Below are positions 13,825 through 51,511 of a stretch of DNA of 64,000 bases, in pieces. Position 1 is the first letter of the stretch. Every line of letters starts with the position of its first letter. Under the pieces are notes generated by a model. That model had not been told where the DNA came from, made no database searches, and saw only the letters and a list, made by a program, of their open reading frames with translations. The position numbers were made by a program, and so were the translations under genes. Origin of the DNA: Lepisosteus oculatus (lineage: Eukaryota; Chordata; Actinopteri; Semionotiformes; Lepisosteidae); contig NC_090707.1 of the NCBI RefSeq assembly GCF_040954835.1, forward strand, positions 20,726,570-20,790,569, read 5' to 3'.

Positions 13825-13894
13825 AAACAAAACAGGATTCTTTTAATTTGGGAGACAGAAAAAATGAGTAAAACTGGATGAATTGCAAACTAAG

Positions 13895-16800
13895 ATGTGC
13901 GGTATATGTTGTGTTGTGAGCTTCTCCTCTTTGCCTTCAGAATTGTCAAAGTTTGTGATTAAAAATCTGAAGAACCGAGGACCCAGCTTTAGTCAAGAAA
14001 TAACAAAGACGGTGAGGGATGTCAACGCTCTGTGCTTTTTCTCTGGCCACGTCCTTCATATGAGAGGAGTCCTGACCCCTCAGCCAGTGCAAGATGAAGA
14101 TGGAAATGTCTTCCTATGGAATGGGGAGGTCTTTGGTGGTCTGACAGTGGGAACTGAAGAAAACGATACACAGGTCGTTTTCCGCCATCTTACTAAATGC
14201 TGCAGCGATGCAGAGATCCTGTCTGCTTTGTCATCTATTCAAGGACCATGGGCTTTCCTGTATTACCAGGCAGACAGACATAGCCTGTGGTTTGGCAGAG
14301 ACTTTTTTGGTCGACGAAGTCTTCTCTGGCGATACAGCAGTGAAGGGAAATCGATTGCTGTGTCGTCTGTGTCCTCAGATCCTGGTACCGGGCATGAACA
14401 GTGGGAGGAGGTGCCAGCTTGCGGAGTTTATAGGATTGATTTAAAGGCATCTTCTTGTTCAGGTTTCTTGGTTCTAGAGTTTTATCCTTGGGCTTATTCT
14501 TGTGACATCCAGTTACCTGTAAATCATGAAGTGAAACGAGAGGACTTACCTTCCTTTGTCTCTTTAGTAATGAATGAAAATGGACTCTTCCTGCACGCTC
14601 CGGTTGTTCCCCTAAATAGTGTCATCCCTGAGAGTCTGCCAGTTGCAGAGCACATATTTGGCTCTCAGCCATCTTTTAAAGACCTTGATGTCTTTTTGGA
14701 GGATGTCAAGAAGAAGAAACTTGCTCAGCAGCTTATAGATGTTTTAAGTGAGGCAGTGAGGCGGAGGGTCCAGTCTCTTCCTAAAGAAAGCCAGGCAGAG
14801 TCTCCTCTTGATGACAAAGCTGATATTGCCATCCTTTTTTCTGGTGGGATTGACTCTATGATTCTTGCTGCCCTAGCAGACCGTCATGTTCCTTTAGAAA
14901 AGCCAATTGATCTTTTGAATGTGGCCTTCCAGTTGCAGGAACCAAAGAAGCCGAAAGGATCTACCAGAAACCAAAAGCACAAGCACATTTCAGAAGCAGT
15001 TCCCCATTTGGAAGCAACCAGGACAGGTTGTGGGATATCCAAAGAATCTGGCTGTTTTGATGTGCCTGATAGAATTACTGGCAGAGCTGGTGTGCAGGAG
15101 CTACAGGCAGTAAGCCCAAAACGAAAATGGAATTTTGTGGAAATTAATATCTCAAAGGAGGAACTTCAAGAAACGAGACAAAAGCGCATCACTCATTTGT
15201 TGTATCCATTAGATACGGTCCTGGATGACAGCATTGGTTGTGCAGTTTGGTTTGCTTCCAGAGGAACTGGTTTTGCAGCAGGAGGCAAGGAACAGCAACC
15301 ATATACCTCAACTGCAAAGGTGCATAATCTTAATATACATTTGTATATAATCATGGTAGCATAGTAGTTAGCATTGCTGCCTCTCAGCACTGGGATTCTC
15401 GGTCCACTTCCGGACCCGGAGTGCTATCTGCGTGCATATTGTACTTGTATATTGTCCCTGTGTTTGTGTGGGCTTCCTCTGGGTGCTTTCCCACAGTCCA
15501 AAAACACATTGGTAGGTTAATTGGCTTCTGGGAAGATTGAGTGTGTATGTTTGTGTTTGTCCTGCGATGGACTGGTGGCCTGTCCAGGGTGTACCCCACC
15601 TTGTGCCCATTACTTGCTGGGATAGGCTCCAGCACCCCTGGACCCTGAATCAAAAGAAGCTGTTAGAAAATGGATGGATTGGAAAGCAAATTTGTAGAAA
15701 GTGTGACAAATGTTTTAGGATAAGGTTATTTTTCTGACGCGAATCGCCTAATTAGGATTCTGTTGACTCCTGGGCTCTCTGTGACTGTTTAGGTCGTGCT
15801 CACTGGAATTGGTGCGGATGAGCAGCTGGCTGGGTACTCCCGCCACCGCCTTCGCTTTAAAACCTCAGGACTGCAGGGTCTTGTCCAAGAGCTAGAGATG
15901 GAACTGGGCAGGATCTCTTCACGGAACCTCGGCAGGGACGACAGAATTATTGGAGATCATGGGAAGGAAGCCAGGCAAGTGTTCTCCTTGTGAAATATGA
16001 TCTTCTATCCATGTTCTGCTTAAAGGCGAGATAGAGATTTGTAGAAGTGGATAATCCTGGGACATCTGGAAAATCATTTTTTAAAACGTAATGTTATAGT
16101 CCTCTATCACTGGAAGAAACTGTATAGATTCCAGTTATATTTTACTGAAAGTATGAGAATATTTTTAAAAAAGATAATTTATAATAGTTTCCTGCAACCT
16201 TCATTGCAGTACTCCTCTCAATTAAATAATTGAACACGTTTTTGGCTTGATTAGAGCAGTTTAAGTGATTTTGAGGTCGGCTGATTTAACGCTTCATGGC
16301 TTGAATTTTTGATTTTATGTAAAAAAAAAAGAACTGCACATATATGTAGGAATTCCTCCTTTAATAGAAAAATTGCTGTACACTTGTTCACAGGATGCGG
16401 GACTTACAAATCCCAATAAGTCTCTGCAACCAAGCTGAATGTACCCATGCTGAATATTCTGATGTTATTAGTGTCATGATAATTTTATACAAATGCATGA
16501 GATGCACAAAAATCATTTTTTTACATTTTTCAATGATGAGGTCCATTAGTAGAATAATGATTCAGCTACAATGACTGAATAGTTCAATAAAAAACATTTA
16601 CATGTGATGAAACTCAACAAAGCAGTTCTTTTTTTCACAAAAAGAAAAGGCGTCCAGACTGTGCACCTGGATTATAGTCAAGGTTTAATTTTTTCTACAG
16701 TCTAACGTGAAAAAACATTACAGTCCTGTCCTGCCAGACAAAAAGCCCGGATTCAGAATTCATACATTTTCTACTGTCAGGACCTTCAAGTCTTTTAACC

Positions 16801-17732
16801 CTCCATGTTAAAGAGACCTATAAAACATGCTGATCTTAATTCTCTTCTCTGCCTATTGATAGGGACAGTCGGGAAGTAGGATGTCAAAATTCCCAACTGG
16901 AATTATTTTATTGCCTTTTGGTTTGTTTTATTTTAAGGATTTTAACAAGCGTAGCGAATGGAAGCTAACGAGCTAATGAAGTTATGTGGCCATCAAGGAG
17001 AGCAGTTGGGAACACCTGCTCTGTAACAGTTCAAGGATCTGTCTCATCTGGCTTTCGTTACAACTGAGCTCTTCATCGCTCCATCCATTCACAACTTAAC
17101 CTTACTTATTAAGTGGTTGCCGCCTTATTATCATCTCCTCTTAATAGGCAACCGATTGCTAATGTCCAGAAACAGGTGGGAATGATGCTGTCTCAGGCTC
17201 TCCCACTGTAAAAAGCAACTGCTGTTCTGCGGAGGCTCTGTTATGAATATTCCAAACACCTGACTGGTGATTTTTTTTAGTGTCGATGCTCATTATTACC
17301 TCCATTAATGATGCCGGAAAGTATATTTAAGAACCGGTTATTGTAGGACAATTAGCGTTGTAAGAGAAATTCCTCTGTAGGAATGAATGCTCAAAAACAT
17401 CCTGGAGTAACACGACTGAGAAACTAGACATCGCCTACCTCAACACAGACGAGGAATAAAGATGGAATATTGTGTTCCCTTTCAGGTTTCCCTTCCTGGA
17501 TGAAGAGGTGGTTAGCTTTCTGAATGCTGTGCCGGTGTGGGACAAGGCCGACCTGTCCCTGCCCCGCGGACTGGGAGAGAAGCTGCTCTTGCGCCTGGCT
17601 GCCAGGGAGCTGAACCTCACAGCCTCCGCAGCGCTGCCAAAGAGAGCCATGCAGTTCGGCTCCAGAATAGCCAAGATGGAGAACAGCACCGAAAAGGCCT
17701 CTGACAAATGCAGCAGACTCCACATGACATAA
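13895..17732 (+). CDS. ASNSD1: Asparagine synthetase domain-containing protein 1
   Basis: Three coding exons: 13895-15319 (475 codons), 15793-15974 and 17486-17732, giving 617 aa; human is about 643. The start is fixed by MCGICC: the class II glutamine amidotransferase (Ntn) fold needs Cys at residue 2. The C-terminal half is the asparagine synthetase ATP-pyrophosphatase domain, with the PP-loop SGGIDS at 316-321 and the strongly conserved [19 protein letters not shown] and [16 protein letters not shown]. It ends RLHMT. The family role is poorly defined; a glutamine-dependent amide transfer is inferred from the domains. Intron 1 has a weak GTGCAT donor and holds a SINE. Intron 2 can only be spliced in frame with a GC donor (AG|GCAAGT at 15975). 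Translated downstream of ASDURF. Confidence 0.96.
15352..15686 (+). mobile_element. tRNA-derived SINE in ASNSD1 intron 1
   Basis: A near full-length copy. It has a box A-like head (TAGCATAGTAGTTAGCATTG), a degraded box B region, the conserved middle GTGGGCTTCCTCTGGGTGC and CACAGTCCAAAAACACATTGG, then CCTGCGATGGACTGGTGGCC, a GGGATAGGCTCCAG block and an ATGGATGGATTGG tail. It inserted in sense orientation about 30 bases after the exon 1 donor and fills most of the 473-base intron. Confidence 0.85.
15975..17485 (+). other. ASNSD1 intron 2 with a candidate conserved noncoding block
   Basis: A 1.5-kb GC-AG intron. The part from about 16900 to 17350 is less AT-rich than the rest of the intron, contains no repeat family I recognise, and has several homeodomain-type cores (CTAATGA, CATTAATGATG, TTATTAAG). 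It could be a regulatory element, but nothing in the sequence proves it. Confidence 0.3.
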
Positions 17733-17878
17733 ATCTCGCCGTTTTATTGTCAGGATGAAAGTGTAGCTTTGTAACTAAAACACAATCTTTGTTTTAAAAA
17801 TATTAAAATATATTGTCCATAAATTTCTTTATCTCCATATTGGTACATTCCTTAACTCTCCTAAATGACATCTGTTTT

Positions 17879-17928
17879 AATAAAACTTGTACATTATTCA
17901 CACTATGAAACCCATTATCTTTAATAAA
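17879..17928 (+). terminator. ASNSD1 polyadenylation signals
   Basis: Two AATAAA hexamers at 17879-17884 and 17923-17928, about 150-190 bases after the ASNSD1 stop. Both are plausible cleavage signals. Confidence 0.6.
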
Positions 17929-18294
17929 GTTTAGGCCATGAAGATTCTTTGATCGTATATTCCTATATTAAAAAAGGTTAAATAATACTTTACTTGTTCA
18001 CAATGGTAAGTGTATTTTGAACACTAAATGCTAGTGAGAGATAATATCGTTGCTGAAGAAATTTTATCACCAATGTCCTGGAGCAGTTATCAGTTTAACG
18101 TCAGATAGTGTAGTCTCGCACCTACTTAAGGTATATTTAGGTGCTGTAATTTCCGGATTAATTCTTCACTGTTTTATTTAATTTTTGTATCCATTCATTT
18201 TGTGGTGAGGGTTCAAAACATTTGATTTGGTTGTTGAATTTTCAGACTGTAGCCATTCACAAAGAATACAGCTAAACACTTATGTTTTACACTA

Positions 18295-21200
18295 CTACTT
18301 CAAATAGGTCTTAGTGTTTTTTAATGTTTTTTGAAAGTAGGCATCACATTCTATATAGGATTGCAAGTTTCCAACGTCGAATCGGCCAGAGATCTCATGA
18401 ATGTAAACCGGCTTCCTAAAATAAAGCAATACAATTTAAAACATAAGAATGTATTATATAAAGTGGTGGTATTGGCTTATTAAAGTAGTGATAACATTTT
18501 GAGCACATGAAAGATATGCCTTTTCTCTATTTAATTTACATAAAGTAGACAGATGGCAAGATTAAGAATTTTTTAATTTATCTGCTGTTCATAAAAAGAA
18601 AAACGACTCTACTCAAAGCCAAGATGCAATATTGAAATATTTTGGATTTGGAAGCCTTTGGAATTGTTTCAGAATGCTCACTCAGCCATACTACTTAACA
18701 CAGTGAAGTTAAAAATGTAAGTTCTGTTCACATCAATTTAAGATAAAATGTAGATTGATACCTCTGTATGAGCCATGATAAAAAGTTTCCTGGAGCATCT
18801 CTCTCTTCTATTGGTACTGTCTGCAAAACAATGTAATGCATTATACTGTATATCACAAAGGAACTTTAAATAGCTAACACAACAGTTAACATGTTTTACC
18901 TTCTTTTCTTCGAGAAATTTCTCCAAAAGGGGAAGAGTTTTCTTGGAGAACAAGTAGCAGCAAGGGCACTGCAAGAATAGAATTAAAAAGTATGCAAATG
19001 CAAACTTTGGAAAAGTATTTTGTTGTAGACACCTGTATTTAAAACAGCATAGCACTCTCCTATGAGAAAGATGAGAGACAAGCAATATATCAAAGAGCTA
19101 CAACCCTATTACTGGAGAACCAAATTCCAGCAGGATTTGTACTTTAATATAAATAAGAGCAAGAAAAAGTCCATACCAGAGCTTATCTTGTTTTCCATAG
19201 GGTTAAGTGAAGTAGAGAGCACATTGACTCTCCCCCTGGATGAGACACTGGTGGTCCCCACTCCTACAGCAAGATCTGTTCATAAATATACTTTTAAGAC
19301 TTTCTAGACAGGTTAGGTTTATATAGTATTATAAAGTTAAGGTCGCTCACAGCTCTTCTTGAGTTTGTGTCAGCAGGGGAGGGTTTCTCTTTCATACAGC
19401 AGACCTTCATTTCACTGTCCACTTCAAGAATGCCGTATTTCGAGGTCTCTGTGAATTGATTACAAAACAAGTATTGTTGTGCAGAAGGATTCAAGAAGTC
19501 AGCAAGGTTTATATGCACTTAAATGATAGCAGTATACAAACTCTCAAGCAGTGGTTAGCAACTCTGATCCTGAAGAACCATGGTCTTGCATGTTTTATAG
19601 GTAACCTTAAATGGTAAACAAGCAGAAAAGAGTGTGCTGACTCCCTAATTCAGGGGTCTCAAACTCCATTCCTGGTGGGCCTTGTGTCTTCCGGTTTCTG
19701 TATCAATATGAGTAGTTATTTCAGCAATAAACAAACTTATTTTTTAAATAAGACAGGTATAGGATTTTTCCTGGGGTCTTTTACAATTGATTACACAAGA
19801 CATTCACTTTATTTAAGGTACAATTATCTATAAACTACTGTGAGGCTGTTCAATATTACAAGTTTACAGACCAACTGAATCTGAGTTGATGACACAAATG
19901 CCCGAAGAAACTAGGCCCTGCAGGAACTGCATTTTAAGTTTATCTCCCTAAGACTAGTACTACAAGGCCTTGCTGTGCAGCAGAGATCTCCAGTCTTTAA
20001 AGCACAAGCTGGTTAACTCATCAAATTAAGTCAATAATGAGCTGATTCATGTTATTACAAACTGTTGGATGTAAAATCTGTAGACACACTGGCCTCTCTA
20101 AGACTGGGATTGAGGATCCCTGCTTTATTGGGAGAAAAGGGATACTCTTGGCAACTGGCAAAACTGCTGCAAGCTTATGCAGGATAATTTGAACTTTTGC
20201 TAAATTATATGTCGTAATGTTCTAGTCTGACATACTAAAACTTCATGCAGCTTTTTTCCAGTCATTATTAGATTCAGGGACAATTTCCCAAATAAGTAAA
20301 CTTTGAGCACTCAGATTGTTATCAAGACACTGTATACTGTAGCTAGTCCTTATTTCTTGCAAAAAAATAAGTTAATGAAGTACTATATCAGTTTATGCCC
20401 TCAGTACCTGGTTTCTATTTTTGCTCACCTTCATCTTTACACTGGTAGGACAAAACCAGATTACATTCATCACATTTTCTTTGTAGATCAAAAAATACAT
20501 CCAGGAATCTGGAGAGACTGAAGTCCTCCTTAAACAAGGTGTCCCTGTGGAGATAAGCAATTCACTTTTAATTCTACGCAAATTCCAGTTCTGGTATGTT
20601 TTACTCCGCTTATATTATAACATTACGTACAAACTGGTAAAAACACATTTGAAGAAAACAAAGGAAATGTCACTTAACTTGGATTGCAAAGTTTAGTTTA
20701 ACACTGGAAAGTCTTACCCCCCAATAACTAAAACATGGTCCTCTGTAGTGAAATGTTTAATTGCAAGCTGAAGACAAGCAACAGCTCCAAGTCTTTCCTA
20801 AAACAAAAAATGAAATACAGAAACAAGTGTAAAAATATGTAATTGATAGATTTCATGTTTCCTAATAAAATGAGAATATAAATATTGAGTATTGGGGTTT
20901 CTGTTGTTATTATTATGAGATTACTGCAGAAACTCATTCAAATCGGCACTGACCTCATTGCATCTGGTCCCATCGTTAATTATTATAACACCTGGAAACT
21001 GCTGTCCCCATTCCTCGAAGTGTTTGAAGTACAACTCATTGGTCTGTTGAAAGGAAGTGAAATTTCTGTGTTCTATCAGTCAGAAAACTCTTATTTCTCA
21101 TTTCATTGCCACCTATAACTGGGGTCTGTAATTGGTCCTGAAGGTTTTCAAAGCTTAAATGATCTTAAATGATCGATGAGCCGCGAGCTGGAAAGCACAT

Positions 21201-21936
21201 GTAGTTCTAATTAAGCAAATGATTAAAGTCTGAGCACAGCTACAAGAATAACCTGGGTAGCACACCTTTAACCTTAAGTGGTTTCTTTTTAGTGCAGCTG
21301 CAATTATATTTTAGGGGCCTACAGTAAATGGCCAAATTCTAGATTTATGTTGGACTACAACCACAACTATACAATACAATGCAATACAAATGCTTCATTT
21401 TATGTTTGATTAAAAGCTGACATAATATTTTTGTTCAAAATAAAAATGCATATACATTACTTCTGTTTTTCTTAAGAATGTGTGTTGTTGGTGTAGTTAA
21501 CTGCAGTGCTAGAGGACCAAAGACTGGTTAGTTTTCATTCTAGCTTTTATTTAAAACCTAATAGTTCCACTGAGCAACTTATATGTTTCCTTTTTTAAAG
21601 AGTTGGTCCATTTTTAATTATACCTTAAAGCCCTTTGGAATTCCAGACCACAAGGCCTATAACTGACTTGCCCATGTATGAACATAATACACTATCTAAT
21701 GAATAATGGAAGCTTGCAAAAGATGTTACAATGTATATACATACAACAACAAAAATCGCATCCACACAGTCAGAACTGTTTAACGCCTCTATCCAGTGCG
21801 AAATCAGAGGGCACCCTCCAACGGGGATCAGGGGTTTCGGGGTGCCGATGAGGCACTTGAACTTCCCCGTTGAGTTGCTCTGGAGATCTCTGTGCAATCT
21901 TGTGCCATATCCCGCAGCCAGAATCACAGCCTTCAT
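18295..21936 (-). CDS. Sugar nucleotidyltransferase-like protein (NTP_transferase fold)
   Basis: Eight minus-strand coding exons join in frame to 274 aa: 21745-21936, 20954-21043, 20718-20797, 20429-20544, 19351-19448, 18900-18968, 18762-18820 and 18295-18415. The motifs are those of glucose-1-phosphate thymidylyltransferase/NDP-sugar pyrophosphorylase enzymes: LAAGYGTRL at 6-14 (nucleotide-binding G-x-G-T-R), PKPLIPVGG at 33-41, VIGGDTLF around 117-125 with the metal-binding Asp, YGILEVDSE then MKEKPS around 164-183, and GRFDVGNLQSY around 245-255. All introns are GT-AG. The predicted reaction is NTP plus sugar-1-phosphate to NDP-sugar plus pyrophosphate; the substrate is unknown. There is no signal peptide, so it is probably cytosolic. 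The length fits a minimal catalytic domain without a left-handed beta-helix. The multi-exon structure rules out bacterial contamination. I know of no human gene here. A possible 5'-UTR acceptor lies just upstream of the ATG. Confidence 0.9.
19555..20125. mobile_element. MITE-like fragments in an intron of the nucleotidyltransferase gene
   Basis: Two or more worn copies of the MITE family seen at 8928. The phrases ACTCTGATCCTGAAGAACC (near 19560), CAGGGGTCTCAAACTCC (near 19652) and ATTGAGGATCCCTGC (near 20110) are terminal-type sequences in opposite orientations. The stretch between them has no coding signal. Confidence 0.45.
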
Positions 21937-21959: not shown

Positions 21960-23475
21960 AGAATAAAAATACGTTTTACTTTTTAAAGACGTAATTTATA
22001 ATAACAATGTGGTTATAACTAATGGTTTTTATTTTTGCATAGTCTACAGCTGAAAAAGTAATTAACTTTTTTATGTGAAATCCATGTGTGGACGTACAAA
22101 TGAGTGTACAGTCTTACCCCTAATTTCGTTCTTTTCTGAAACCCTAAATCCAACCGTATGAGTTTTCCTGTTTTAATATTGCCATTTGGCTAAGAGATGC
22201 ATCTGCAACAATTGTTAACTACAATTACACAGCAGTTCACCACAACTGTCCCTTTCCTTGCACAGCGCTTTCCATGGTGTAAGCGAAGTCCATATCCTGC
22301 ACAAGCATTTGTCAACAAACAATATACATTTTCTCTAAATAAAAAAGTTATTAGCAGTAACAGACATGCCTAGTAATACAACAAATCGCATTTAACCTAC
22401 TAAGTGATCGTATTTATATCCACAGTGAAAAGCGAAGTGGAAAAACAGAGCCTCGAAAATGTAAAACTTATCTACAAAGGCTCTCTGCAGCATTTTTTGC
22501 AGGAACCAACACGTCAGCCTCCAGTGTCACAGACCACGAAATAAAAACAGCGCCCCTATCTGCCATTACCGTAAACTACTGCTATATGACACATTCAATA
22601 GGAAAGACGCGCCCCCTGCTGTCGTGTTCAAAAGACTGACGCGTTTAGACAACGTAATTTAGCGTCCTTGGTTGCTAAGATCTACATTGAAATTCCTCGA
22701 CGTGACACGTTGATCGTAAGATATACTTTATTTGAATTCCACAAGTAAATGCTTAATAAATAGAACTCTTTGCTGCACAAAATTGTCCCAAATGCACACT
22801 AACATTTTATTTGTCTTGTTTAAACCAAGAGAACACCTGAGATTTACCAACGGTACTTTCCATTCAGCAAAAGTAAGTCAGTGTTTACTTTTTATTTCAA
22901 TACAAAATTGGTAAAAAACAGAAATAAATTGTTTAGTTTAAACGCAGTTTTTATTTTGTATTTTATATAGCACAAGCAAATTCTGAATATTTGTGTGATT
23001 TTCATCGTATTTGGTGTCTAGCTTTGCTTGATGAGTATTTAAATAATGGACGTGTGATGATAATACCTAATCTTCAATTAAACGTCTGTGATTTAGCTAG
23101 ACGACCTGTGGAAGGAATGCAATGCACTAAACTTCAGTATGGTGATAATCAACTTTATTATTTTGTTATTAGATTAATTCAAATTATTGCATAATAGACT
23201 TTTTTTTACTATACCGCTTTATATGATATATCTTGTAAAATATGTGTATTATTTGCAGGCGTTTTTAATATTAAGCGCCAGTGATAAAGGCAGCAGTTAA
23301 ATTATTACAACGTTGACGGATTTCAGTGTCCCTGCGTTCTCTGCCCAGACACATTCTTCAAAAGCACCTTTATGACCTTCTAAAATTGAAAGATAGGGAA
23401 ACAGTACGAATTCAGTTTCATGGTGATAGGTTGGATGTGATTGTTGTTTAAATTTCAGCAGGAACTGATTGCTAC
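21960..23475. promoter_or_regulatory. Divergent intergenic region, nucleotidyltransferase gene / ANKAR
   Basis: These 1.5 kb separate the head-to-head start codons of the minus-strand nucleotidyltransferase gene and ANKAR. CpG dinucleotides concentrate at about 22420-22710 against an AT-rich background. That block has a CTCF-like site at 22609-22622 and CTTGGTTGCTAAG near 22668, an RFX-type half site. The 22730-23440 part is AT-rich and I see nothing in it beyond a probable ANKAR 5' leader at its end. Promoter function is inferred from position. Confidence 0.4.
22609..22622 (-). promoter_or_regulatory. CTCF-like motif
   Basis: GCGCCCCCTGCTGT; on the minus strand ACAGCAGGGGGCGC, a good match to the CTCF core CCASYAGRKGGC with one mismatch. 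It sits inside the CpG-enriched block between two divergent genes. Confidence 0.45.
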
Positions 23476-26400
23476 ATGGCACAGTCGGTAGCCTCCAGTT
23501 CTTCATCCAAATCTTTCCAAGCCAGCGGTGGTGAAAGGGATGACGAGGCTTACCTTGCCGGGTTAGCGGCCCAGAGAAACGCAAACGCCTTCTTTGAGAA
23601 ATATGACAGAAGAGACCTACAGGAGTTGCTGAGCTTGACGTCTTGCAGCTGGCTACTGTGCTGTGAAGACAACAACCTGCCTGCTGAGCTTCCTACCGGA
23701 ATCATAAAGCAAATGAAAAACTTCAGCTTCCCCAATGCAGTCATTCTTGCACCTGTTGACCCTCGGGTGTCTTTGGACTATAAAGACGTCCATCAGATTG
23801 TGAGGGAGCTTGTGATTGGTATCTACTGCTTCAACCAAATCCCGTTTCTCAGCCTTGAACCCAACTATGACCAAAGCACCTCATGTCAGCTGACCCCTGC
23901 CTACTATGACACAAAGGTGGGACAGATTCTGATCAGTGTTGATTACATGGTTAAAGCCCTTTGGCATGGAGCTCTCATTCCAAAGGAGAAACGAGTCAGG
24001 TTTTCTGAACTGTGGCGATCCAGCATGGACGTTGATGCCAGTGGAGTACCTCATACAAAGAAAGATATCTATGCAGAATTTCTTACTGCAGGTAAGAAGC
24101 ACCATTACAATAATTCTGTACACCATAATTATTAGCTTTAATGGATACTTTGTAATGGCTGCCCTCCTCACGTTGTTCTATCCTTATTGTCTTTATTCAA
24201 TTGTCAATTGTTCCTGCAAATACTGATTTTCTTTTTCTTCTGTCTGGCCCACTTTCTCTCTCCCTCCTTCAGTTATGTCCCAAAGACTTGTTTGCACTAC
24301 AACTCCTTAGTTTCTCTTTTTTTTCCATCTCTCTCGGTTGTGAAGCAATATTCCCAGGTGAATTTTCCAAGTTTGGGATAATAAGTCTTCTAATCTAATC
24401 TGCCTCTTTGGATGTCCCGTAGTTCAGATTTCAAAGTTCAGATTTCATATCCAAATGCTATAATAATAATGCAAATTACAAAGTCTGGATCTTAATGGCA
24501 CAAAGTCAGATTCATTAGAATCATTAGAATTACAGATTTTTACTCTGCTTTCTTATCTGGGACATTTTGGTTTATGGCTAATGAGATTTATTCACACAAA
24601 TACATATAATGACCAGTTTCTTCTAGCTTTATGTAATTTGTTTTATTGTTACTGGGAAAGGCAGACTCATTAGTAAAACACTTTCATTTTCTGTAAGTTA
24701 TTTCTCAGTCTTACTTTGATGCTAACTTGTTTTAGATTTTTATTTGAATTGTAATTCTGCTGGGTTCAGTGTACATGTATGGCCCCATATTTGGTGTACT
24801 GCATAAGCTAAACAAGAGTTGTCTAATCCTGATCCTGGAGGGCCAGTATATCTGCAGGTTTCCATTCTAACTCAGCTATTAATGAGCTAAATTAACTGGG
24901 TTTGACCAGTTTAACAATTTAACCTACTGTAGCTATTCAAGTGCTGTTAATTAAAGAGAACTAAAAAAAAACCTGCAGACATGCCAGTCCTCCAGAATCT
25001 GTTGCGACATGTTGAGCAAAAAAAGCCACAGTCTTAGATAAAGATCCTAGATAATCCATTTCTGTTGATCCAACACTGCATCAGTATTTTGGCCAGCAAA
25101 ATGTACATCACAGTGAGGCAGTGCTAGAGACCATGGGATATTGTTAACCTAACATAATTATTGCCAGCCCTGATCCTGGACAGCCAAATGCTTTGTGGCC
25201 TTAAATGATCGGTTTTGTTACACTGTGAACAATTTCATTTTCACAATTTAATCTGGCGATGTTTTTAGTTAGTCATTTAGAGATCACTACAAATGGAAAT
25301 GAGCACCTTACAGCTGTCAAGGATAATTTCATAAGGATTAAACAACAACTACTGCTGCTAATAATAATGCAATGGCAGCCATAGTGCACCGGTATACTCA
25401 CCACACATCAGGTATTAATGGGGAGGAGAACAGAGTGATGAAGCCAGTTCATAGATGGGGGATTATTAGGAAACCATGACTGGTAAAGGCCAATGAGAAA
25501 TTTGGTAAGGACACAAGGGTAACACCCCTACTCTTTCCAAGAAACACCCTGTGATTTTTAATGACCGTAGAGAGTCAGTTTTATGTCTCATCCAAAGGAG
25601 GGCACCTTTTTACAGTATAGTGTCCCCCTCACAATATATACAGTATAGGACCCACACAGATCACAGGGTGAGCGCCCCATACGCCAAATACCTCTTTGAG
25701 CAGCAACCTTAGTTTTTCCCAGGAGGCCTCTCAACCAGGTACTTTAGTGGGTGGCCAGTTACGAGTTGCAGGGTCATATGCTTAACTGGCTTCCTTGGTT
25801 AGTGGAGCAAGTAAACTTGCTAAATTGATGAAGATGTTGTAAGTGTTTCAGGACTTTATAAATTGATGAATTAATGGTGTCCTGTAGGACCTGGTGTAGT
25901 GTGGCTCTCTAGACCAGAGGTGGCTATCCCCTGCTTAACATGTTGAAGGTGTGTGGTGCATTTATTCTTTCACAACTGCAATTGTAAAAAAATGCAGTTT
26001 ATCTTTTTGCTAATGTGCTTTTCTTCATGAAAGTGTGGTGTTGCTTTTCACAATGGAGCTGTTTCCTCTTTGTCAGGTTTAATGGATATTTCAGAAGATG
26101 CTTCCTATCAAGGCATATATAGTGAAGTGATCAACGTGGACCCAACCTATGATCCCAATAGTCCTGAAGAGGAGAAACTCTTTTCACAGCATTCAGAAAG
26201 TATCCTTCTAAAGCTCTCTCCCTATCTCTGTTCTGTGAAACAGCATGAGAATCTGTTTGTGTTTGAAGGAACATACAACCTGTCGAATGTGGTGAGGCTT
26301 GCAGAGGATAAAGTGGATCTCTCCACCTATCAAAGGCTCGAGCAGAGACTGAGGCTTCATGAAAGACTCGTTGGAAATTGCTTGGAAAGGAAAATGGAGA

Positions 26401-29400
26401 TGCGTAAAAACATGGCTTATCTAAAGCTAATTGCTTTCTTAGTGCCTTTTCTTATTGGATTGAAGAAAAAAATGAAGATCCCTGATCTAGCTAAGTTGCT
26501 TCCTTCTTTTTCTGGTAAGTGCTTCTGGTTCCATTGTCTCTCGTCGCGTAGGTGATGCATACATGCGTACAACAGTTTGCAATCTTGCCCCCTGGGGGAG
26601 AATGTTGTAAAGATCCATGGAAAACAGTTAACTTCTAGACACACTTTCAGATATTCCAGACTTGCAGAATGTTTCTTCATGTGCTTTATGATTAGATTAG
26701 AAAATCAAACATAATAAAATAAAAAAAATGTTACCTCAAAGAAAGAGGTTGATATATTAATATACGTTTATAAGACGATCAGTTTCATTTTTAACTGAGC
26801 AGTTCACTTGTTCTTAGATGATAAACTGAAGACAGAAAGAGAATTGCCTCCACTCCTGCTGGGTCCTGACTTTACCTGTAAGCACTTCAAGTACAAGCAG
26901 AACGAGTACTTTCACCTCCATGGCAGTATAGAGTTTGATATTGGAACCCCTGGTGTGGAGGACATTCCTAGTGAGATAAAGGTGAGCAAAGTGCTTAAAT
27001 TCACAGTGTTTAAGAGTTGTCCTTGATTGCTTTTTCAGTCGAGCAATGCTTATTTTATTTGCACAAAATATTGTTTTTACAGTAGTTCAGTTGCTTTTGC
27101 TTCTTTCTTTACAATAGGATGCATTTGAAGATCTACAGAGCTCTGCATCTGATCATTTAAGTGGATTGCTTGCTCACGGCGTGCCTTACAGAGAACATTA
27201 CCCCTTGCCCGTAAGGCAATTTGAAGGAAGAAGGCAAGCATAAGTATTAAGAACAAATCAGTTAAAAAATACTTTATGTGATGGCCACTTGCATTGTATG
27301 GGATTACCCTGAAATGTTCTTTTCATTGCAGCTATTATGTAATTTCCATTGAGATTGGGATGTTGTATCAGCAGTTAGGCAGGATTCAGTGGTGGGAGGC
27401 CATGAATGATTCCATCAAAGCTCTAAAGGCCAAAAGACTGCCATTGAATGACACCCAGCTGCATGAACAATTCAAGAAAACATTTGGCTACAAAAAAGCC
27501 ATTAAATGCAAGGTAGACATCTGCATTTTCATACTGTGTTATACTCCGTGTGACAGTTCATTAGGATTGAGTCTTAGGCATTTTTATTACAGATTTTAAA
27601 TTGTGGATCATTTATTTTACAAGTATGTGGGAAATATGTTCAATGACCAACTTCTAAGCTTGTGAACGAAACTATTACGTTAAAATCAGAATGGCGTATT
27701 GTAAAATATTATTTTTTTTCATGACATAGTTCCAGACATATTAAAGTGTTAGAAGATGACATTTTAAAATTATTTTAAAATAAAAAATATGCAAACGGAG
27801 AAATGAACCAAGAGCATTCCAGACACCCTGGGACTGCCTCAGCCTGTAAAACTGAAGCCGTTTTGAAAATAGCAAATGTGAGTTCAGTAATTGTTTTACA
27901 GACACTAAATATTCTATTTAATCTTGTTGCGACCGGGCACTGCTTCAGAGTTTACCGCTTGGTCTGAAAGCTGCTGCAGAGAGGGGTCTTGTTGCTGTGT
28001 TTCAAACCCTGTGCCGCCGCAACCCTGTGTCCCGACTGAGGTTCCTGGACGAGCAGGGCTACTCCCTTCTGCACCACGCCGCCCTGCACAACCAGGCGCC
28101 CATCATCTGCCAGCTGGCCATGGCAGGACTCAGCCTCAACCAGAGGCGAAGTGATCGGTTCATTCGGGCAGGTCAGTGTACCCCCTCTGCATACCCACGT
28201 TCTCTCATGCAAACAGGTACATCTCTGCCAATGCGCACTCACCCAGAGTCAGGCAGAACAAATCTGGGAATCTGGTTTTATCTGTCTTATCTTAAAAACA
28301 TATATAATGGTAATCTGGTTTTATCTATCTTATCTTAAAAAATATTTTTTAAAAAATAATTTGTCCTATTTATGAGAAAATATGCAGTGATATCTGTGTG
28401 TGGTTGTTTTTTGTGTTTCTTATCAAACAATTGTATTTTTTTTTGTATGGCCCTCCATACCTGCTGACATAGTATAAATAGTTCATTTTATATATACAAT
28501 GTAACAGAAATGTATGATGAAGGCAAATGTTTATTCTGCTGTTTTGGTTATGTTCTGCTTGTAAATCCTTTCATCACTAAATAAAAAGTTTTTAAAGATC
28601 ATTTGTCCTTATAGCAATACCTATTGTCTCTTGACCTACTGAAAACAATAGTGCAGTTTTTAAATAAGATGAGTGTTACACCCCTGTAATTAAATATTTT
28701 AATTGTTTCTTATTTGTCTTCTTCTTCTTCTTCTTCTTCTTCTTTTTCACAGCCTTAGTCCCAGACTGTCCTGGGGTCAGCTGCTTTGGTTGCTCTTCTC
28801 CATTTGTCTCTGTCGAGCACATCTTCCTCACTCACTTCACATACCTCCATATCTTTTCTCACACAATCTATCCATCTCTTTCTAGGCCTGCCTCTTCCTC
28901 TGTTACCTTCCACCTCAAATTCCATTACCCTCTTTGTTACTTCCTCAACGTCCCTCCTCATGATATGTCCATACCACCGTAACCTCGCCTCTCGCATCTT
29001 CTCAACCACATCCACCACCCTACATCGTCTACGGATTTCTTCATTTCTGATCTTATCCTTCATTGAAATCTGCAGAATCCATCTCAACATCCTCATTTCA
29101 GTTCTTCTCATCAAGTTCTCTTCCCTCTTTCCAACTGCCAAGCATTCAGCTCCATATAGTAGTACAGTATAATTGTTTCTTATTTGTCTTTTTAGTAAAA
29201 TCACTGACTATTGGAGAACCCTTAAGGGAGAGAACAGGTTAGTTTTCACAATTAATTTTTATAAACATAGTTTTCTTTCTATGTTTCACTGATTTGCCAT
29301 TATCCAGGATGGCACAGTGACATAGTGGTTAGCATTGCTGCTTTATAGTGTTGGGGCCCAGGGTTCAATTTCAGTCCTGGAGTTTGTACAGTATGTCCTC

Positions 29401-32400: not shown

Positions 32401-35400
32401 ATACAAATGACACACGAATGATGTTTTGGACCCCACAAATTCTTCATAGACCTATACTTGTGATAACGGAGTCTTACAGATTTTAATTAGTGTTTACCTC
32501 CTCACCACCTTATCATGGATGCGGTGATAGGATCTAGTTCAAAAGAGCAAGGCAAATCAGTTTTGTGGAGCTTTCCTGCTGTCTGTCAAATATGTCCTTA
32601 GCACTTTCTTACACAGACAAGGTAGAGCTACAGTATGCTCCACCTCGCAGTCCTGTGTTTCACAGTATTGCCATTGTGCCATTTGCCACCAGGGGGCATC
32701 CCCGCTCTGATGGCCTTGCTGTGCAGTGGGCGGCAGACCCTCCAGTGTGTGGCGGCAGCTGTGGTGTGCAACATGTCTGAGAGGGAGGCAGTGAGCAGAG
32801 GCCTGGTGGAGTGCGGGGCAGTGCCCGTGTTGGTGCAGCTCCTGCACAGTCCACTGCCAGAGCTCCAGTCTCGCTGTACCGTCATCCTGGCGGACCTGGC
32901 CTTGTGCAGCAGCGAATACCAGGCCCTCATTGCACAGCTGGTGAGCCTCAGGACCGCTAGAACTGTCTTCGGTGCAGCTCTGAAGTAGCCTTAGTGAAAA
33001 GGGAAATGGAGTGGAGGAAGGGATCCAGTCAGGAAAAAGTTTCAAACCAGTGAGCACAAAGCGTGATGTTCATACGCAGATAGGCAGAAGTGGGCGAGAT
33101 TAGGGTTCGACCTCCTGAACGTCTGGTTACAACTCCATTTTTACTATTTATTTTTCTCTAATTAGGAAAATAAACCATACCATTAAACTGCTATTGATGC
33201 CTCTAATAATATGAATGATAAATTTAATACCATTGACAGACACCCTCTATATTTTGTAGTTTTTTTTTCTGAATAATGTACTAAAGGTGAATACGTTTCA
33301 GATTCAGGGTGCCAGTACCAAGTTCTCAAATATTTACCAGTATTTAGCTGAAGGAACATTTTGACTGAACTAAAAGAGTTTCCCTAGGGAGAAGTTTTGT
33401 TTGGAACAGGGTTAAGTTATGTGCTGGTCCTCTCCCAGGGTGGGATTGTCCCCGTGGTGCAGCTTCTGGGATCAGACCTCGAGGACGTGCTGATCAGCGT
33501 GGTGAACTGTGTCCGAGCCCTGTGTCTCCACAGCACAGCTAATCAGAGTGCAGTGGTAAAAGAGGGAGGGATTCCACCACTTGTGGAGTTCTTGACTATT
33601 AAATCAGGTAATGACTGATTCTGCGTGCGTGTATTTTAGCTCTTGTCTTCAAATGATACTGTAGGTAGTATCGGTATCTCAAACCTTACTTTACCTGGCC
33701 CTTGATCTAATGTTAAGTGTGCAAAATAATATCCTGATTAGCCGCAGAGCAGGTTTCTTGATGGCTTCAAGAGAATAACTTTGTTAACAGGCAATCACAG
33801 CTCAGTTATACAATCCATTATCTTTTTTTCGTTGGCTCGGTTTATTTGAACATGGTTTAATGCATGTGAAAACACCCCATACAGATACACGGTGACAAAA
33901 GATCAAATTAGTGGAATATGCACACGATGTTTAGATTGCATTTTTCTCAGTTACCTGAAAGCGATACTTTTTACATTCCTCCTCTCAATTTCTTTACACA
34001 GTTATTTAGTATGTCCATTTGAGCATGGAATCAGGCTGCATAAACAGTATAGTAAAATATTTTTCTGAACTTAAGCTTGAGCTTAAGGAACTTAATTATA
34101 CAATTTCCACTGCAGAATTTGTATAACTAAATGTGAATATATACCAAATATGATATAGACTTGGGTGTCACAGTAGCATGGTGGTTTACACAGCTACCTC
34201 ACTGTTTTTGATTCCAGCCTACTTCCTTTAGTTTAATTGGCATCTGTCATTGCACCCTGTGTATGTATAATGCCATGGATTGGTCCAGGATGTAGTCTAA
34301 CCTTGTGCTCTATGCCTGTTGGCATAGGGTGCAGCTCCAAAATCCGCTTTCAGAACAAACAGAAATGGAGTTTGAATAGGTCATTTATAGTATTTTAAAC
34401 CAAACAGCCTTCGAGGAGGACGAAAAAACAAGACAGCGTACTGAGCACTTTGGGGTTTGTTGGCTCTATGGTTGCATTTCAGCTTGAGATGTTTTGGAAG
34501 TGCAGCCCTTGTTTGGAAGTCGTCATTTTTTAAGAATAAATTCTAAAATGAGTATGATGTTCCACCTCCTAAGCCCACTGCAGGCTGTTTTGGGTTTCAG
34601 ATGTGCTGCAGGCTGCTTCTTCTGCCGCCCTGGCCGAGCTGGCCAGAGGCCACAGGCAGAACCAGGATGCCATCTGCGCGGCAGGAGCCATCGGGCCTCT
34701 TGTCAACATCATCCGTGGACGGAAAATGGCAGTGCAGGTGAAAGCAGCCGTGGCTTTGGAGGCTTTGGCTGACCACAATGCTGCCATCCAGGCTGAGTTT
34801 CTCAAGAAGTCAGTCTCGAAACACCTTCTACGCCTTTTAAAGGTAAGTATTTAAAAGCTATTTTGACACGGTGTCATATATGAAGATTGGTTTGGTGGCA
34901 GGTAGATCTATAGGCTGTCTGCATCTGTAGACACAGTGCTTTCATTCATAACGTACCTTGAAGGCAACGAAAACTCAGCTTTCATTCTGGGTACGTCCTA
35001 TACATGTGCAGTAACAACATTAATAATAATAATAATCCCTTTCACATTGGTGGTAGTTTTGTTAAATTCAGGCAGTTAGTATGTTAAGGACTGTAAAGGT
35101 TTTGCTATCAGCCAATAGCAAATTTCATAGAAACAAAAGAATATGTATTTGCATTTTAAATTAACTTCTGTGCTGTGTTCAGGTTTTTCAGCTGGAGGTG
35201 AGGGAACAGGGAGCAGTGTCTATATGGGCTTTGGCAGGACAGACTCTAAAACAGCAGAAAATGATTGCAGATCTGATTGGATATCATTTTATTTTAGACC
35301 TCCTTTATTCTTCATCTGACAAAATGCAGTTCGTTGGTAAGTTAATGCTTGAAATCATGATATTTTCACGTTGTTTTTATGCAGTTCAATTACAATGCAG

Positions 35401-38400: not shown

Positions 38401-41400
38401 CAGACTCTAGCCTGCGTGGTGCTGGGGAACACGGAACTACAGACAGCCCTCTGGAATGAGGGAACATTCACTTACAGCATTGTCTTGGAGATGCTTCACA
38501 GTCAAGATCAAGTACATTATAGCAGTATTCCTTTCATTTATACTGGCAATGTACACAGGCTTTAGATACATTAAAACGTCCATTCATCCATCTGTTTTCA
38601 GTCTGGGCTATAGGCTAGTTTGTGATTTCCTAATGTTTGTTTTCAATCATTAATGATCAAAACCATTATTACAAACAGAACAAAAAGCCCTATCACAAAT
38701 ACAGTAGGGCCACACCTGTTGTTATGTTTCTTTTATTTTTATAATAAGACAAAGTAATGTATTGTAGAACTTTTCAGTTGTGTTAAACAGGGGATTTCAG
38801 TAATCGTAGCGATTTCTGCTGAAATTATAGGAATGCTAGTCCAAACTATGTACTGCTAGCATCATGTTGATCAATTTAAATATGAAAATGCTTCTCTAAC
38901 TAAATCTTTTGCTTTTTAGAAGATCTGCCTTGAAGCTGGATATGCTTTATCTCTCTTTGCATTCAACAACACAGTACAGCAATTCATGATTCTGCAAAAA
39001 GGAGGTATTGAAATGGCGATTTATGAACCCTTTTTGCAGTCTGAGGATGAGTTTGAAAGAGCGAAGGCTGCATTTCAGGTATTTATGAACATATCATTAG
39101 GCAGAGTGCTTATTACACTCTTCATCTTGATCTATGACCATGTTGTGGTGAGGCTTTTGTTCCTGTACCAACAGGACTTTGGCCCTTGAAAGGTTTTACC
39201 AGATATCAGGTGAGGGATCAGATTAAAACAGCAGCTGGTCATCTAGGTTGGGGGTTGAGCGTGGTCCTAGTGATTCCACCTGTAACATGGGCATCTAGTT
39301 ACAGAAACTGCAAAAAAATCTACAATATCATCCAGAGGTCTAACTATGATCTCCAGTTGATGTACTGGTAATCGGTAATATATAGTTCGAGTAGGTAGCT
39401 GTGTCAGCATGAGTAGGCTGCAAATGAACAAGTAAAGGTTTACTCCATTCTAAAAAGAGAAGAAAAGAAACACAAGGTTTAGACTGTGGAGCCTTCTTCG
39501 GGTGTGTCACAGCCAAAAGCTCCACAGCCAAAACATTGTTTCTTTTCTTCTCTTTTCACAATGGAATAAACCTTTACATGTTCCTTTGCATACTGGTAAT
39601 ATGACAGCTTCAGATGAAAGCCCTGCCAGTTTAGAGTTAGGAGTTTATAGAGCTTATGAAATGTCCGCACAATGCATGACACATTCAAGCCAGAACAAAT
39701 TATCCAAGAGAAAATACAAATTTCTTTGTATCAGCGACTGTGGATGGCAACTTGAGTCAGGATACAACATAATAGGTGATGGCTTAACCATCCTTTTCGC
39801 TGGGAAAGGCTACACAGGTGTGGTGTAGCCAGCGTAGTGCGCAAGAACAATGGTATTTCTCTCATAGATTGGGAACCCATCAGTGATCTAATCACTTGCA
39901 AACATTGGAGTAGATAACAGTGACTGAGAAAGAGCTGTGGAGCAACATGGTCAATGACAAAACAGGAGAAATACTTGTCGGCTTCTGCCTTAATAATGAC
40001 TACATCATTGGAGAGACAACTTCTTTCTCAAAGACACGGCCTAGCTGACATGGTCTGTCATTGTGAACAGTGACCACTGCCTGGTTTGATAAGTAGAAAT
40101 TAAAGTTTTTGGTTAGCCATACCAGACTCAGAGTAATAAGTCTTAGACACTACCAAGATGAGAGTGAAGAAAGTTTTTATCAATGAGCTCAATATATTGG
40201 TCAACGTAGAAGATCAAGACAGTTTAAAGTAAGTTAAGACAGTTAAAATGTTCAGACAAAAAGAAGACATTTAAAAAGACACATACACCAAAACAACCTA
40301 CAAAGACATTGAATATAGAAGGACAAGCAGTGATTAACAACAGAGATGTGGAAGGAGATAGAAGAAAGAAGGCATGAGGAAAAGCTGATGAATGATAAGT
40401 TACCCAGGCTGACTGAAAAACAGCTGAATAACTATAAAAGATCAAAGACAAAGATGTAAACAAGAGGCCTAGAAGAGATAAGAGATCCTTTGTCAAAGAA
40501 CTGGCAGAACTGGCTGCAGCAAGGGGAAAATTGAACTGTTTTTAAAATCAGTTAACAGCTCTGGAGACAATCATACCATTCTAGTCAAGGACAATCAAGG
40601 AAGGGTAATACCAGACAACAAGCTGGAACATGGGTCCAGCACTTTGAAGAGGTTCTAAATCGGCCTCATACTGATTATCCACCTAATTCACTCCCCTTCG
40701 GACAGTGTTGGCATTGACTTACATGGAAGCAGAAGTGAGCACAGCCAACAAAAACATTTTTCTAGCAAAGCCCCTGGACTTCATACTTTCTAGGCACAGC
40801 TATTCAAAGCAGGTGCAAACATGGCTTCCAGGGAGCATACCAGCCTCTTCATAATACACAGAATACAAAAATGAAATCATATCAGAAGATTTGTTTCTAG
40901 ACTGCCAACAAAATGGGGCCTGTACAACTGTGAGGTGGAATGCTAATGTCATTAATGACAAGCTTAAACAAGAGCATGCAGAGCTCTGCAAGGACAGATA
41001 TTTGATCTGCACAGCAACACAGAGCAATGTAATGGAGTGCACCCCCCCAACATCAACTTCTCAGACTTTGTGGCAATCACGACAGAGTAACAATGTTCAC
41101 CATGAAAGCTTGAGTAATTATTAATTATTTATTATCCCCTGGGGATAATAAAGACACTCACTCAAATTCTCAGAGCCTATGGAATTCCAACTCACATTAT
41201 CAACATTATTGGGAAGGTCCTTGAGCACTTGAAATGTAGTATATAAGACTATGCACTGTCTGGTTTGAAATTAAATCTGGAGTCTGGCAAGATTGCATCC
41301 TATCTCTATATTTCTTTTTACTGTCGATTGGGTTATGTATCAAACAAGAAATTAAAACACATTTCACATTTAGAAGACCTTGACTTCGCTGATTATCTCA

Positions 41401-44982: not shown

Positions 44983-47900
44983 TCAGTCTCTTATCTTCAG
45001 TTTCAAGCGTGGAATCTTTATGGCTGCCTCCTTCACTTGTCCTGAAATGTCAGTCCCAAATGAAGCCCTGCAGCACATAAACCACAATACATTAGGCTGA
45101 TATTCTCACTTATACCTAAAGAATGACTATTTACGAGTTAAGGATATGCTTTAGATGGTCATCCGTAATAAAACAGCAAAGTATTAAACATCAAGTGTCT
45201 ATATTCTAAATATAGATTTCCTTAAACTTTATATGACAGTCTATTCTGCTCAGGAATCAGTTAGCCATGTCTTTAAACATTTGATGAAAAATGATTCTTC
45301 CATTTTCTTCAATCTGCTTTTTATTGTAATTTATGTAAAGCTTTGTGACTTACTTTGGCTCATAGCAGATGTGTTCAATATGATTTAATATTCCTTTTCC
45401 CTCTCGGAGTCTCTCTATTCCATTCCTAAAAAACAACAATATTTACTCAGGCTCTAGGTAGAGCAGTACAAAATAATTTAATCTAAAAGCCAACATTAGG
45501 AAATAATTGATATCGGAGAATATTATAGCCTCACTTCCATGTTCCACTGGCATACCTGCAGTTAGTCAGACGAAGTGATTTAGGACAGATTAAATCTGTG
45601 CTCCATTATTTCATAATCTCACTAGTTCAATTCTATATTATTTTGCCTATGGTGTTCTCATTGTGATTTACTCATATAAAACTTGTTTGGCACAATAATC
45701 CTCACAAAATGCAAACTTGCCACAGATAGGCAAACAGACCTTTTGGACTCCTCACCATGCAATCATGACACCGTTGTCTGTGCAAAATTTTGAGGGTGGA
45801 CAGAGCAAAGTCAAATCGGTTGCATCCGTAACAATTTTCAAAGTCTTTTTGATATATTGATTGCTTGCAACTCCTCCAGAGACAACCTGCAATATGAAAT
45901 GTTATGAGGAGTCAGATTCACTCTATAAACAATAGTTATCAGAGTCATTAAGACATATATTGGCCTTCATATTTGATAACCAGATATCAGATGCATTTCA
46001 AAGAGAATATTTGTTACACCTTAACAGGAATGAACAAATAATGCACATTTTTTATGAAGAGCTTTTAACTAAACACACTCATTGCTTTTAGACACCGTCT
46101 ATACAAAGTACTGCTAAGAAGACAAAATATAGTCTTCTTTGTAGGACACCTATGATTTTTTTAATTGCTGAACCCCCAATTTATTATTACTTGTTGTTCT
46201 TTGAACATACCTAGCTCTGTTCTTCTTTATAATAAATATATTCCACAAACTCACCAGAGTGGGGCTGTTTTGGGGCAACAGTCCCTTGGCTTTACAGAAC
46301 AGTATCGCACGATGGGTGCGCTTTGCGATATGGGAAGCCACAGTGTGCTGCACTGCAGCAGCAATGTCATTAGCACAGGACAACATCTGACCCATTTGTA
46401 CACCTGCAATAAAGGCACATCTGTTTAACACCCTTCAGGGACCGAAGCCTTGTTCTGCTTTTCAAATAGGATGTAGTCCACAGCAGGAGTAACCACTCCT
46501 GTTACTAATTCAACTAAGAGGTGGCATAAACTAGAAATTTTTCACAAACTGGAGAAATCTCAGGTTTACCACAAAGAAAAGCTTGCTTACCTTCCCCCTC
46601 TTCCTTTTTGATAATGACCTGAGTCACTTGGTTCCGAAGACCAGCAAAGGAAAAGTTGCAGTCCAAATGTTGGCCCATGGGTGACTTCAAGTAAAACTTT
46701 AGCCTGTCGCCTTGTTTAGCTAAATGCTCAATGGCCTGGCCACCACTTAAAGTGGAGCACTCTGGGTGTTTAATGAGGGATAGTCTTCTTGCTACCTGTC
46801 AATGACAACTGGGTTATTCAGTTTAGTGAATAATTTATGAATGTTTCAGCAATGTATATAGGAATAGAGTCAGGGTATAAACATTACCAAAACAGACAAA
46901 AGAAAAAACACATCTGAAAAAACATACAGATATTGTTCTGTGTACTTCTACTATTGTATAAATAAATATGCTCTTTTATTTTCCCTTCAGCATGGAATAA
47001 ACCTTTACCTTTTCCTTTGCAACTTGCTCATGCTGAAGCAAAATATGAATTTCTTAAGTACAAATATTTGTTCACGACAGTAATGTACAGGGGCCACCGA
47101 TGCTTCATCTTCTTTCCAATAACATAGAAAAACTGCAATGGAGAACATCCAGACAGACCCCTCACAAAGGAAAAGATGAATGTTCTTTATATTTGCCATT
47201 AATACTGCATTCTTTGGAAATATTTGAGCTGTTTATCAGTGCAGGTAAGTGGACTTACAGTTTTGAAACCACTTACACAATGCTCAAAAAATCCTCAACA
47301 GACCCTTTCTGAGAGCACATTCAAAATTTTTACGTACTTTATCTAAAGTGTCTCCTGGCGCTTCATCCAGTGATTGTCCCAGGAGAAGAAAGTCATCGAT
47401 TCCATTAGCCACTGCCAGTAGACAGTGACCCCCAGACACCAGGAGCACGAGGAATGGGAACTGGACAGAGTGAATCATTCTGACAGTCAGTGCATGGGCT
47501 TCCATGTGGTGGATTGGGATGAATGGCTTTTTATACTGCTGTACGAATTTCAGACTGTACTCCAGGCCCACCCCGAGGCTCAGTGCTAGACCCGGTTTTA
47601 CTGTGGTTGCAACAGCAGATAGCTCGTTTGGTGTAACTCCACTCATGGCCAAGGCCTGCTGGATCACTGTCGTTATGTGTTCCCTGTGCAGTCGTTGGGC
47701 CACTGTTGGAATGATCCCACCTGTTCTAAAGCAAAATATACACATGCATACAAATGACACCACTATTACTATTGCACATATTGTTACACCACAGTTTTGA
47801 CCTGTAAACCATATTTAATACAGAAAGGAAATCTGAAGTAAGAAATGAGGGGGAAGGTGAATTTGTATTTAAAAAAATTCTGATTTACAAAGTTTTGTTA

Positions 47901-50277: not shown

Positions 50278-51511
50278 GAGTTATATAATATAACATACGC
50301 TACTCATTATTTTAATACGACCGTGACTATTTCTTTTCTCCGATCCTTAATTCCATTAATTCTCACAACCTCTCATGCGTCCAGCGGCAATTAGTCCCCC
50401 GTGTAAATATTTCCCATTAGAAACAAACACCGAAATGCGCGTTCCATTTGCGTTGCCTGTACTGTTTTTAGAATTTTCAAATAAATATATTGACCATCCG
50501 ACGTAATTTTATGATAGGTTCTTTTTTAACTAAAAATCATCCGAAAGTTAGGAGCGGAAAATTAATACTATACAGGAACCAAAGATGTGTACCAATTGTT
50601 GCCGGAAGGGCACATTATACACGTGCAACAGTGAGAACGTGAAAGGGATTGTAGCCATAAAATACATCTACTTTTTGAAATTATGACCTCTTTTTTTGAT
50701 TTTCTGTGTTGAATCCGTTTCGGTATTGCTTTTTGTTTTTAGGGTGTATATAGGTAAGTTAATGGTAAAACTGAAAAAAGCTTCTACAAACAATTTTTAA
50801 ACTCGTACTTCGTAGGAGCATCTGAACAGCAATTGCATATTACATTTTATTATTTAAATTGAAACTTGTTTATAACCCTTTAGACTTAATATAATGTTTG
50901 TGTTAATTGAATTTGTAATAAAAAACGTTTTAGATTTAGTTGAGATTTGAAGACGTTAAGACTAAATATTTTGTATGTGCATATTTATAAACTTATACTG
51001 GGTCTTATGGTACATTATAAGTATTTTTGTCTTACGTGAAATTATTTTATAGAAGTTTAATTTTTAGTGTCTACGTAGTACAGGAACTATATAGGAGAAA
51101 GACGGTAATGACAAAATATGAGGTTTTATTCGTTGTTAAAATAACATTTGCTGAAGTTTAGAAAAAGGATCCCGTGATTTGAACTAAACATAAATTTGTA
51201 AAATGCAGCATTTTAGATATTTTTTAGGACATCAGTATATATTACCATTTACATAAACATAAATATACAATATGATAAGCCCAGTTGTGTTGTTTTTAAA
51301 TTTAAGGCAAAAATGGGCTTTGTCCATGACTCAGTCGTGAAATTGGTCTACATGTAAAGAAAATTCCTTTGGCAGATTGTAGATATTCATATCGGGATTT
51401 TATAAAGGAAGAAAGTCAGCAAACTCTCAGCATAATGTACTGCTTCCTTGCCCAACATTTTGCATTTCTGCTTCTTAAGAGTTTAAGCATCCCTTGTTTT
51501 GACAGGTTTTA
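50278..51511. promoter_or_regulatory. Divergent promoter region OSGEPL1 / ADAT3 and ADAT3 5'-UTR intron
   Basis: Head-to-head spacing between the two start codons is 1.23 kb. A cluster at 50590-50630 has CCAAT, an ETS-type CCGGAAG (50602-50608) and an E-box CACGTG (50620-50625). ADAT3 probably has a noncoding first exon ending at 50753 (TATAG|GTAAGT) joined to an acceptor at 51504-51505 (TTTTGACAG), seven bases before its ATG. The 50760-51500 stretch would then be a 5'-UTR intron and holds nothing else recognisable. Confidence 0.45.

Follow-up and report, generated by a model that had tools for sequence, protein, structure and literature searches.

Glucuronate salvage and the fused enzyme GKUP

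UDP-glucuronate feeds glycosaminoglycan synthesis, and glucuronate is made from myo-inositol by MIOX. What links the two in animals? The kinase of a route from free glucuronate to UDP-glucuronate is known, while a convincing pyrophosphorylase is wanting. A 2014 report, cited here from the sections available to us, published zebrafish GKUP, a protein of 619 aa in which about 260 aa at the N-terminus form a nucleotidyltransferase domain and the C-terminal part is a glucuronokinase, and the same fusion from Xenopus (PMC3938481). The kinase was assayed and works. Full-length zebrafish GKUP gave a small UDP-GlcA signal in 70 h, and DrGK or DrUP alone gave none; the pyrophosphorylase activity was not improved by cofactors, expression in yeast, or use of the Xenopus copy. 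As possible explanations the authors named a modification and a partner protein yet to be identified (PMC3938481). An available part of a paper on UGDH disease raised glucuronate supplementation, should humans turn out to have a route of this kind (PMC6992768).

In the same sections of the 2014 report, the GKUP family is described from fishes, frogs, tunicates, and others, not from mammals, and the two domains are said to lie on separate transcripts in Latimeria and sea urchin (PMC3938481). A BLAST search in zebrafish found no other homolog, as far as these sections state (PMC3938481). Among the literature matches listed, this report alone treats the solo animal form. The name gkup occurs once in what was available of a sea bass paper (PMC12487334).

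A stand-alone nucleotidyltransferase gene in Lepisosteus oculatus

The window analyzed here is a 64,000-nucleotide stretch of the Lepisosteus oculatus genome (1.2-Gb assembly), and its last letter is base 20,790,569 of contig C12. On its minus strand, from 21936 to 18295, eight exons join into one ATG-to-TAG frame of 274 aa. The seven introns are all of the GT...AG type, with mutually compatible phases of 0, 0, 2, 1, 0, 0, and 2. Exon 1 (21745..21936) carries the start codon, GYGTRL with Arg13, and PKPLIPVGG with Lys34. Exon 2 (20954..21043) runs from TNELYFKHFEEW to NDGTRCNE, and exon 3 (20718..20797) runs from ERLGAV to VIGG, which is most of the GGD motif; Asp122 of this motif is in exon 4 (20429..20544). 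Exon 5 (19351..19448) contributes EKP, with Glu180 and Lys181, and is followed by exons 6 (18900..18968) and 7 (18762..18820). Exon 8 (18295..18415) carries FDVGN with Asp248 and the stop codon TAG, and the product ends 26 residues past Asp248. Joining the exons and checking phases, start, and stop thus confirmed that the eight-exon gene is real and intact, as an earlier sequence-only reading had proposed, and the five motifs occur in the order that it gave (GYGTRL, PKPLIPVGG, GGD, EKP, FDVGN).

To what family does the product belong? A Pfam search matched it to PF00483 (NTP_transferase) at 86.1 bits (E 3.8e-24, cut-off 21.2) over residues 2-260, corresponding to positions 1-240 of the 245 in the profile, and all the Pfam models that it matched are nucleotidyltransferase-type. 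The active-site set of PF00483 is complete (R13, K34, D122, E180, K181, and D248). NCBIfam, queried with a copy of the protein that had one wrong letter (Y for C at residue 196), yielded no specific name: the best 25 of 34 matches, against equivalogs such as RmlA, GalU, GlmU, and AglF, all lie below the curated cut-offs, the top score being 59.2 against a cut-off of 292.1. Exon structure, family match, and active-site residues together show the gene to encode a predicted stand-alone sugar-1-phosphate nucleotidyltransferase of the RmlA-like type. The proposal of a minimal sugar nucleotidyltransferase gene of bacterial type, complete and with introns, is thereby upheld. The claim of something undescribed in the same reading fails in part, as the animal family is known from the published zebrafish and Xenopus GKUP (PMC3938481, sections available); its suggestion of an undescribed sugar-nucleotide product lies outside that outcome. 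The RmlA-like domain and signature motifs are also common to GMPPB and GMPPA, which differ in having a C-terminal beta-helix domain, as the available text of a structural account states (PMC9168903), whereas the window protein stops behind its catalytic domain.

Two forms in one genome

A search of the same genome with the window protein gave nine matches, eight of them to the window gene itself and one to contig C26. In the stretch C26:15018001-15048000, nine nucleotidyltransferase exons begin at 15028020 (the end of the ninth was guessed) and are followed by thirteen kinase peptides in order, from 15033468 to about 15038691. Once joined, these peptides match GHMP_kinases_C, the sole Pfam family reported, with an E value of 1.7e-8. 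Judged from these matches, contig C26 carries a fused GKUP, and the window gene is a separate, kinase-free paralog. What is new here is a single genome with both forms, a solo nucleotidyltransferase and a fused GKUP. The first intron of the fused gene holds a 40-bp tandem repeat of 12.8 copies at 98% (C26:15029075-15029586, or L014:5075-5586).

The window protein itself has no C-terminal GHMP glucuronokinase of the GKUP type. Could the window gene be the front half of a second fused GKUP whose kinase was missed? This was ruled out, as the kinase peptides match nothing near the gene: a tblastn search of the window with the kinase peptides of the C26 GKUP returned one hit, at 53923-53789, with E 0.53 and with stops, and no GHMP motif was seen by eye in minus-strand frames of at least 20 aa within 15000-18300. 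An exon-by-exon search of the whole genome with the PF00483 profile gave three matches at E <=0.001, on contigs C4 and C9, with the window gene not among them; we take these to be GMPPB and an EIF2B subunit.

The transcripts that carry the nucleotidyltransferase domain by itself in Latimeria and sea urchin, known here by description, are likewise a stand-alone animal form and may be orthologous to the window gene (PMC3938481, sections available). These species aside, a goldfish paper, in the part available, enters zgc:136439 as "Novel protein" with "no homolog" (PMC3487223). The window protein was compared with the GKUP domain in sequence, tree, and intron positions. We presume that zgc:136439 is a possible fish ortholog of the window gene.

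Kinship of the window protein and the GKUP domain

In a two-sequence comparison, the window protein and the GKUP N-terminal domain are 33% identical over 257 aligned positions (E 3e-40); another comparison gives 32%. The domain is homologous over its length, and both proteins carry some 11 extra residues between the signature Arg and the Lys of PKP, an insert that is absent from the 15 other aligned rows (13 plus L025 and L028). Against PF00483, the GKUP domain scores 38.7 bits over profile positions 19-190, compared with 86.1 bits over positions 1-240 for the window protein. In the tree the two are sisters at 94/89 with 17 rows, and at 95/92 with 16 rows when L031 is left out; the pair groups with five prokaryote-type rows at 91/88, not starred. 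All of these supports are fair rather than strong. Letters stand in the insert columns for 2 of the 17 rows, and the 30% rule should have dropped such columns from the tree.

The two paralogs differ in more than the kinase that GKUP carries. The signature Arg (R13) is kept in 16 of the 17 aligned rows, the sole loss being Leu in GKUP, while K34, D122, and E180 are kept in all 17 and K181 in 16 (His in L031). D248 is kept in 13 of 17, with Leu in GKUP, His in L031, Ser in L028, and no letters in L021, whose frame ends early. The copy of GKUP in this genome thus lacks both the signature Arg and the C-terminal Asp, and the window protein keeps both; the GKUP losses were read in this one genome, and that of the C-terminal Asp is shared with L031. 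The GKUP branch is also the longer, at 1.54 against 0.63.

What do these residues do in related enzymes? For Arabidopsis VTC1, the available text names Gly9, Thr12, Arg13, and Lys23 as contacts of citrate or PPi and describes Glu195-Lys196, Asp111, and Asp219 as critical for catalysis (PMC9168903). The VTC1 residues were mapped onto the alignment by motif, with Glu195-Lys196 left out. The 2014 report gave Gly11, Asp91, Asp118, Lys163, and Arg220 as examples of conservation with E. coli RmlA (PMC3938481, sections available). By alignment offsets, the signature Arg corresponds to Arg16 and the WLD Asp to Asp226, and both fall outside that list, which suggests that the two losses may extend to zebrafish GKUP.

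None of the seven intron positions of the window gene is common to GKUP, which has eight introns in the domain; the nearest pair lies 3 alignment columns apart and differs in phase. The two genes must therefore have parted long ago or acquired their introns independently, and the split looks old. A recent duplication of GKUP as the origin of the window gene was ruled out on the same count.

Prokaryote-type relatives and their gene context

Beyond vertebrates, the relatives include two prokaryote-type proteins, L027 (from IMG/VR) and L021 (from a Lactococcus garvieae plasmid). L027 is close to the window protein in length (253 aa), and both relatives share the motif (N/D)DG(T/S)...RLGAV and have the same active-site residues wherever letters exist. 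They differ in being about 32-36% identical to the window protein and in having no insert before PKP. Each has a GHMP kinase close by. For L027 it is on the same contig, with a transposase-like frame, identified by eye, in between; the L021 nucleotidyltransferase sits directly downstream of its kinase and ahead of a nucleotide sugar dehydrogenase. The L027 kinase resembles galactokinases by its NCBIfam matches, which are below cut-off, and the L021 kinase is 55% identical to it. Neither shows significant similarity to the GKUP kinase, so what recurs is the pairing, not the type of kinase. On the L. garvieae plasmid, which carries polysaccharide genes, the relative (L021:6001-6663) stops early, after 221 codons.

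NDP-sugar synthases of haloarchaeal plasmids are more distant. They are 27-31% identical over 94-98% of the window-protein query, are about 50 residues longer, and fall outside the group formed by the window protein, GKUP, and the five rows. No GHMP kinase is listed at the four annotated haloarchaeal loci, whose gene tables are incomplete; one locus lies near a dTDP-glucose 4,6-dehydratase and another near an ADP-dependent glucokinase/phosphofructokinase. L031 adjoins a frame of the inositol-monophosphatase family. A scan of genome contigs recovered one distant relative, and when 395 genomes from the phylum of that relative were searched with the L027 protein, there was one match at E 1e-20. 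Overall, the functional clues from gene context are mixed.

What might the window enzyme make?

A solo paralog with an intact active site in a genome that also bears GKUP is a concrete candidate for the pyrophosphorylase. The main reading, to which we assign a probability of roughly 0.4, is that the window gene encodes an active solo enzyme, paralogous to the GKUP domain, that acts as a uridylyltransferase on a uronic acid 1-phosphate, likeliest glucuronate 1-phosphate, and completes glucuronate salvage. The enzyme would transfer UMP from UTP onto the uronic acid 1-phosphate and release pyrophosphate. Its likeliest acceptor would be the glucuronate 1-phosphate supplied by the GKUP kinase domain, giving UDP-glucuronate, and the whole route would run from myo-inositol through MIOX to glucuronate, GlcA-1-P, and UDP-GlcA, with the window enzyme at the last step. 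A search for MIOX, of a kind that ignores introns, gave five matches on contig C7, four of them crossing stop codons, and none in the 14 control genomes.

The near-absent activity of GKUP fits with the active-site residues lost from its copy here, so that the stand-alone gene may be the working partner wanting in the 2014 study (PMC3938481, sections available). The GHMP kinases near L027 and L021 also speak for salvage. Counting against it are the galactokinase-like type of these kinases, the haloarchaeal loci with no GHMP kinase listed, the stop codons in four of the five MIOX matches, and the absence of Asp248 from L031 as well as from GKUP. On the same side, the small UDP-GlcA signal means that the fused domain may keep some activity (PMC3938481, sections available), and zebrafish, if it has no solo gene, must run the pathway without an enzyme of the window type.

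A tenable, if tentative, alternative is that the window enzyme is an active nucleotidyltransferase that makes some other UDP-, dTDP-, or GDP-sugar, with a kinship to GKUP that is historical and carries no link to glucuronate salvage. The old split, with none of seven intron positions in common, agrees with this, as does an identity to GKUP (32%) no higher than that to prokaryote relatives (32-34%). The NCBIfam matches range over archaeal GlmU, AglF, GlgC, GalU, and RmlA, the best 25 of 34 being far below cut-off, and one of the haloarchaeal relatives has the dTDP-glucose 4,6-dehydratase nearby. Against this alternative, the window protein falls in one group with the GKUP domain and several prokaryote-type proteins, two of which have GHMP kinases close at hand.

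If the window enzyme does complete glucuronate salvage, how far might the arrangement extend? A broader proposal, rather unlikely as it stands, is that non-mammal vertebrates divide salvage over two genes, GKUP with its kinase and a dead domain, and the solo gene between ASNSD1 and ANKAR with the active uridylyltransferase, perhaps in a hetero-complex like that of GMPPA and GMPPB. Such a division, if true, would explain why GKUP alone was near-inactive in 2014. A rival reading, in which the window protein is the catalytic partner in a GKUP complex and the degenerate GKUP domain has a regulatory or scaffold role, as GMPPA has for GMPPB, is improbable. One intact and one degenerate paralog do occur in the same genome, GMPPA is said to lack the catalytic activity that GMPPB has (PMC9168903, available text), and an unidentified protein partner was among the proposals of the 2014 authors (PMC3938481, sections available), but the window protein does not have the beta-helix, which is the main domain of GMPPA-GMPPB assembly (PMC9168903, available text). 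That the window gene is decaying or functionless in L. oculatus is hardly credible, given its eight intact exons, GT-AG splice sites, retained active-site residues, and branch shorter than that of GKUP (0.63 versus 1.54).

The genomic neighborhood

The gene had been placed between ASNSD1 and ANKAR, and the domains of its neighbors agree. A large open frame on the plus strand at 13868..15364, which we take to be ASNSD1, has a glutamine amidotransferase domain; the part tested, 13898-15361, scores 20.8 against the Pfam asparagine synthase model, narrowly below the cut-off of 21. On the other side of the gene, an armadillo-repeat frame with a Pfam match lies at 32665-32985. The plus-strand open frame at 23452..24135, presumably ANKAR, has no Pfam match over 23476-24132, and the frame at 26070-26552 has none either. 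Introns, vertebrate-type gene neighbors, and a large contig rule out a bacterial contaminant, a possibility against which the gene had been flagged for checking.

Further along the window, a 150-aa minus-strand frame at 28755-29207 without a Pfam match resembles by eye the end of a LINE reverse transcriptase, and a long inverted repeat of 172 bases at 39419-39590 is an 84% match to its own reverse complement. A minus-strand open frame of the TsaD family (Pfam) at 47284-47814 is presumably OSGEPL1, which fits a gene order like that of human 2q32. A 376-aa plus-strand frame at 51503-52633, apparently a single exon, has a cytidine deaminase zinc-binding domain (Pfam), and we take it to be ADAT3-like.
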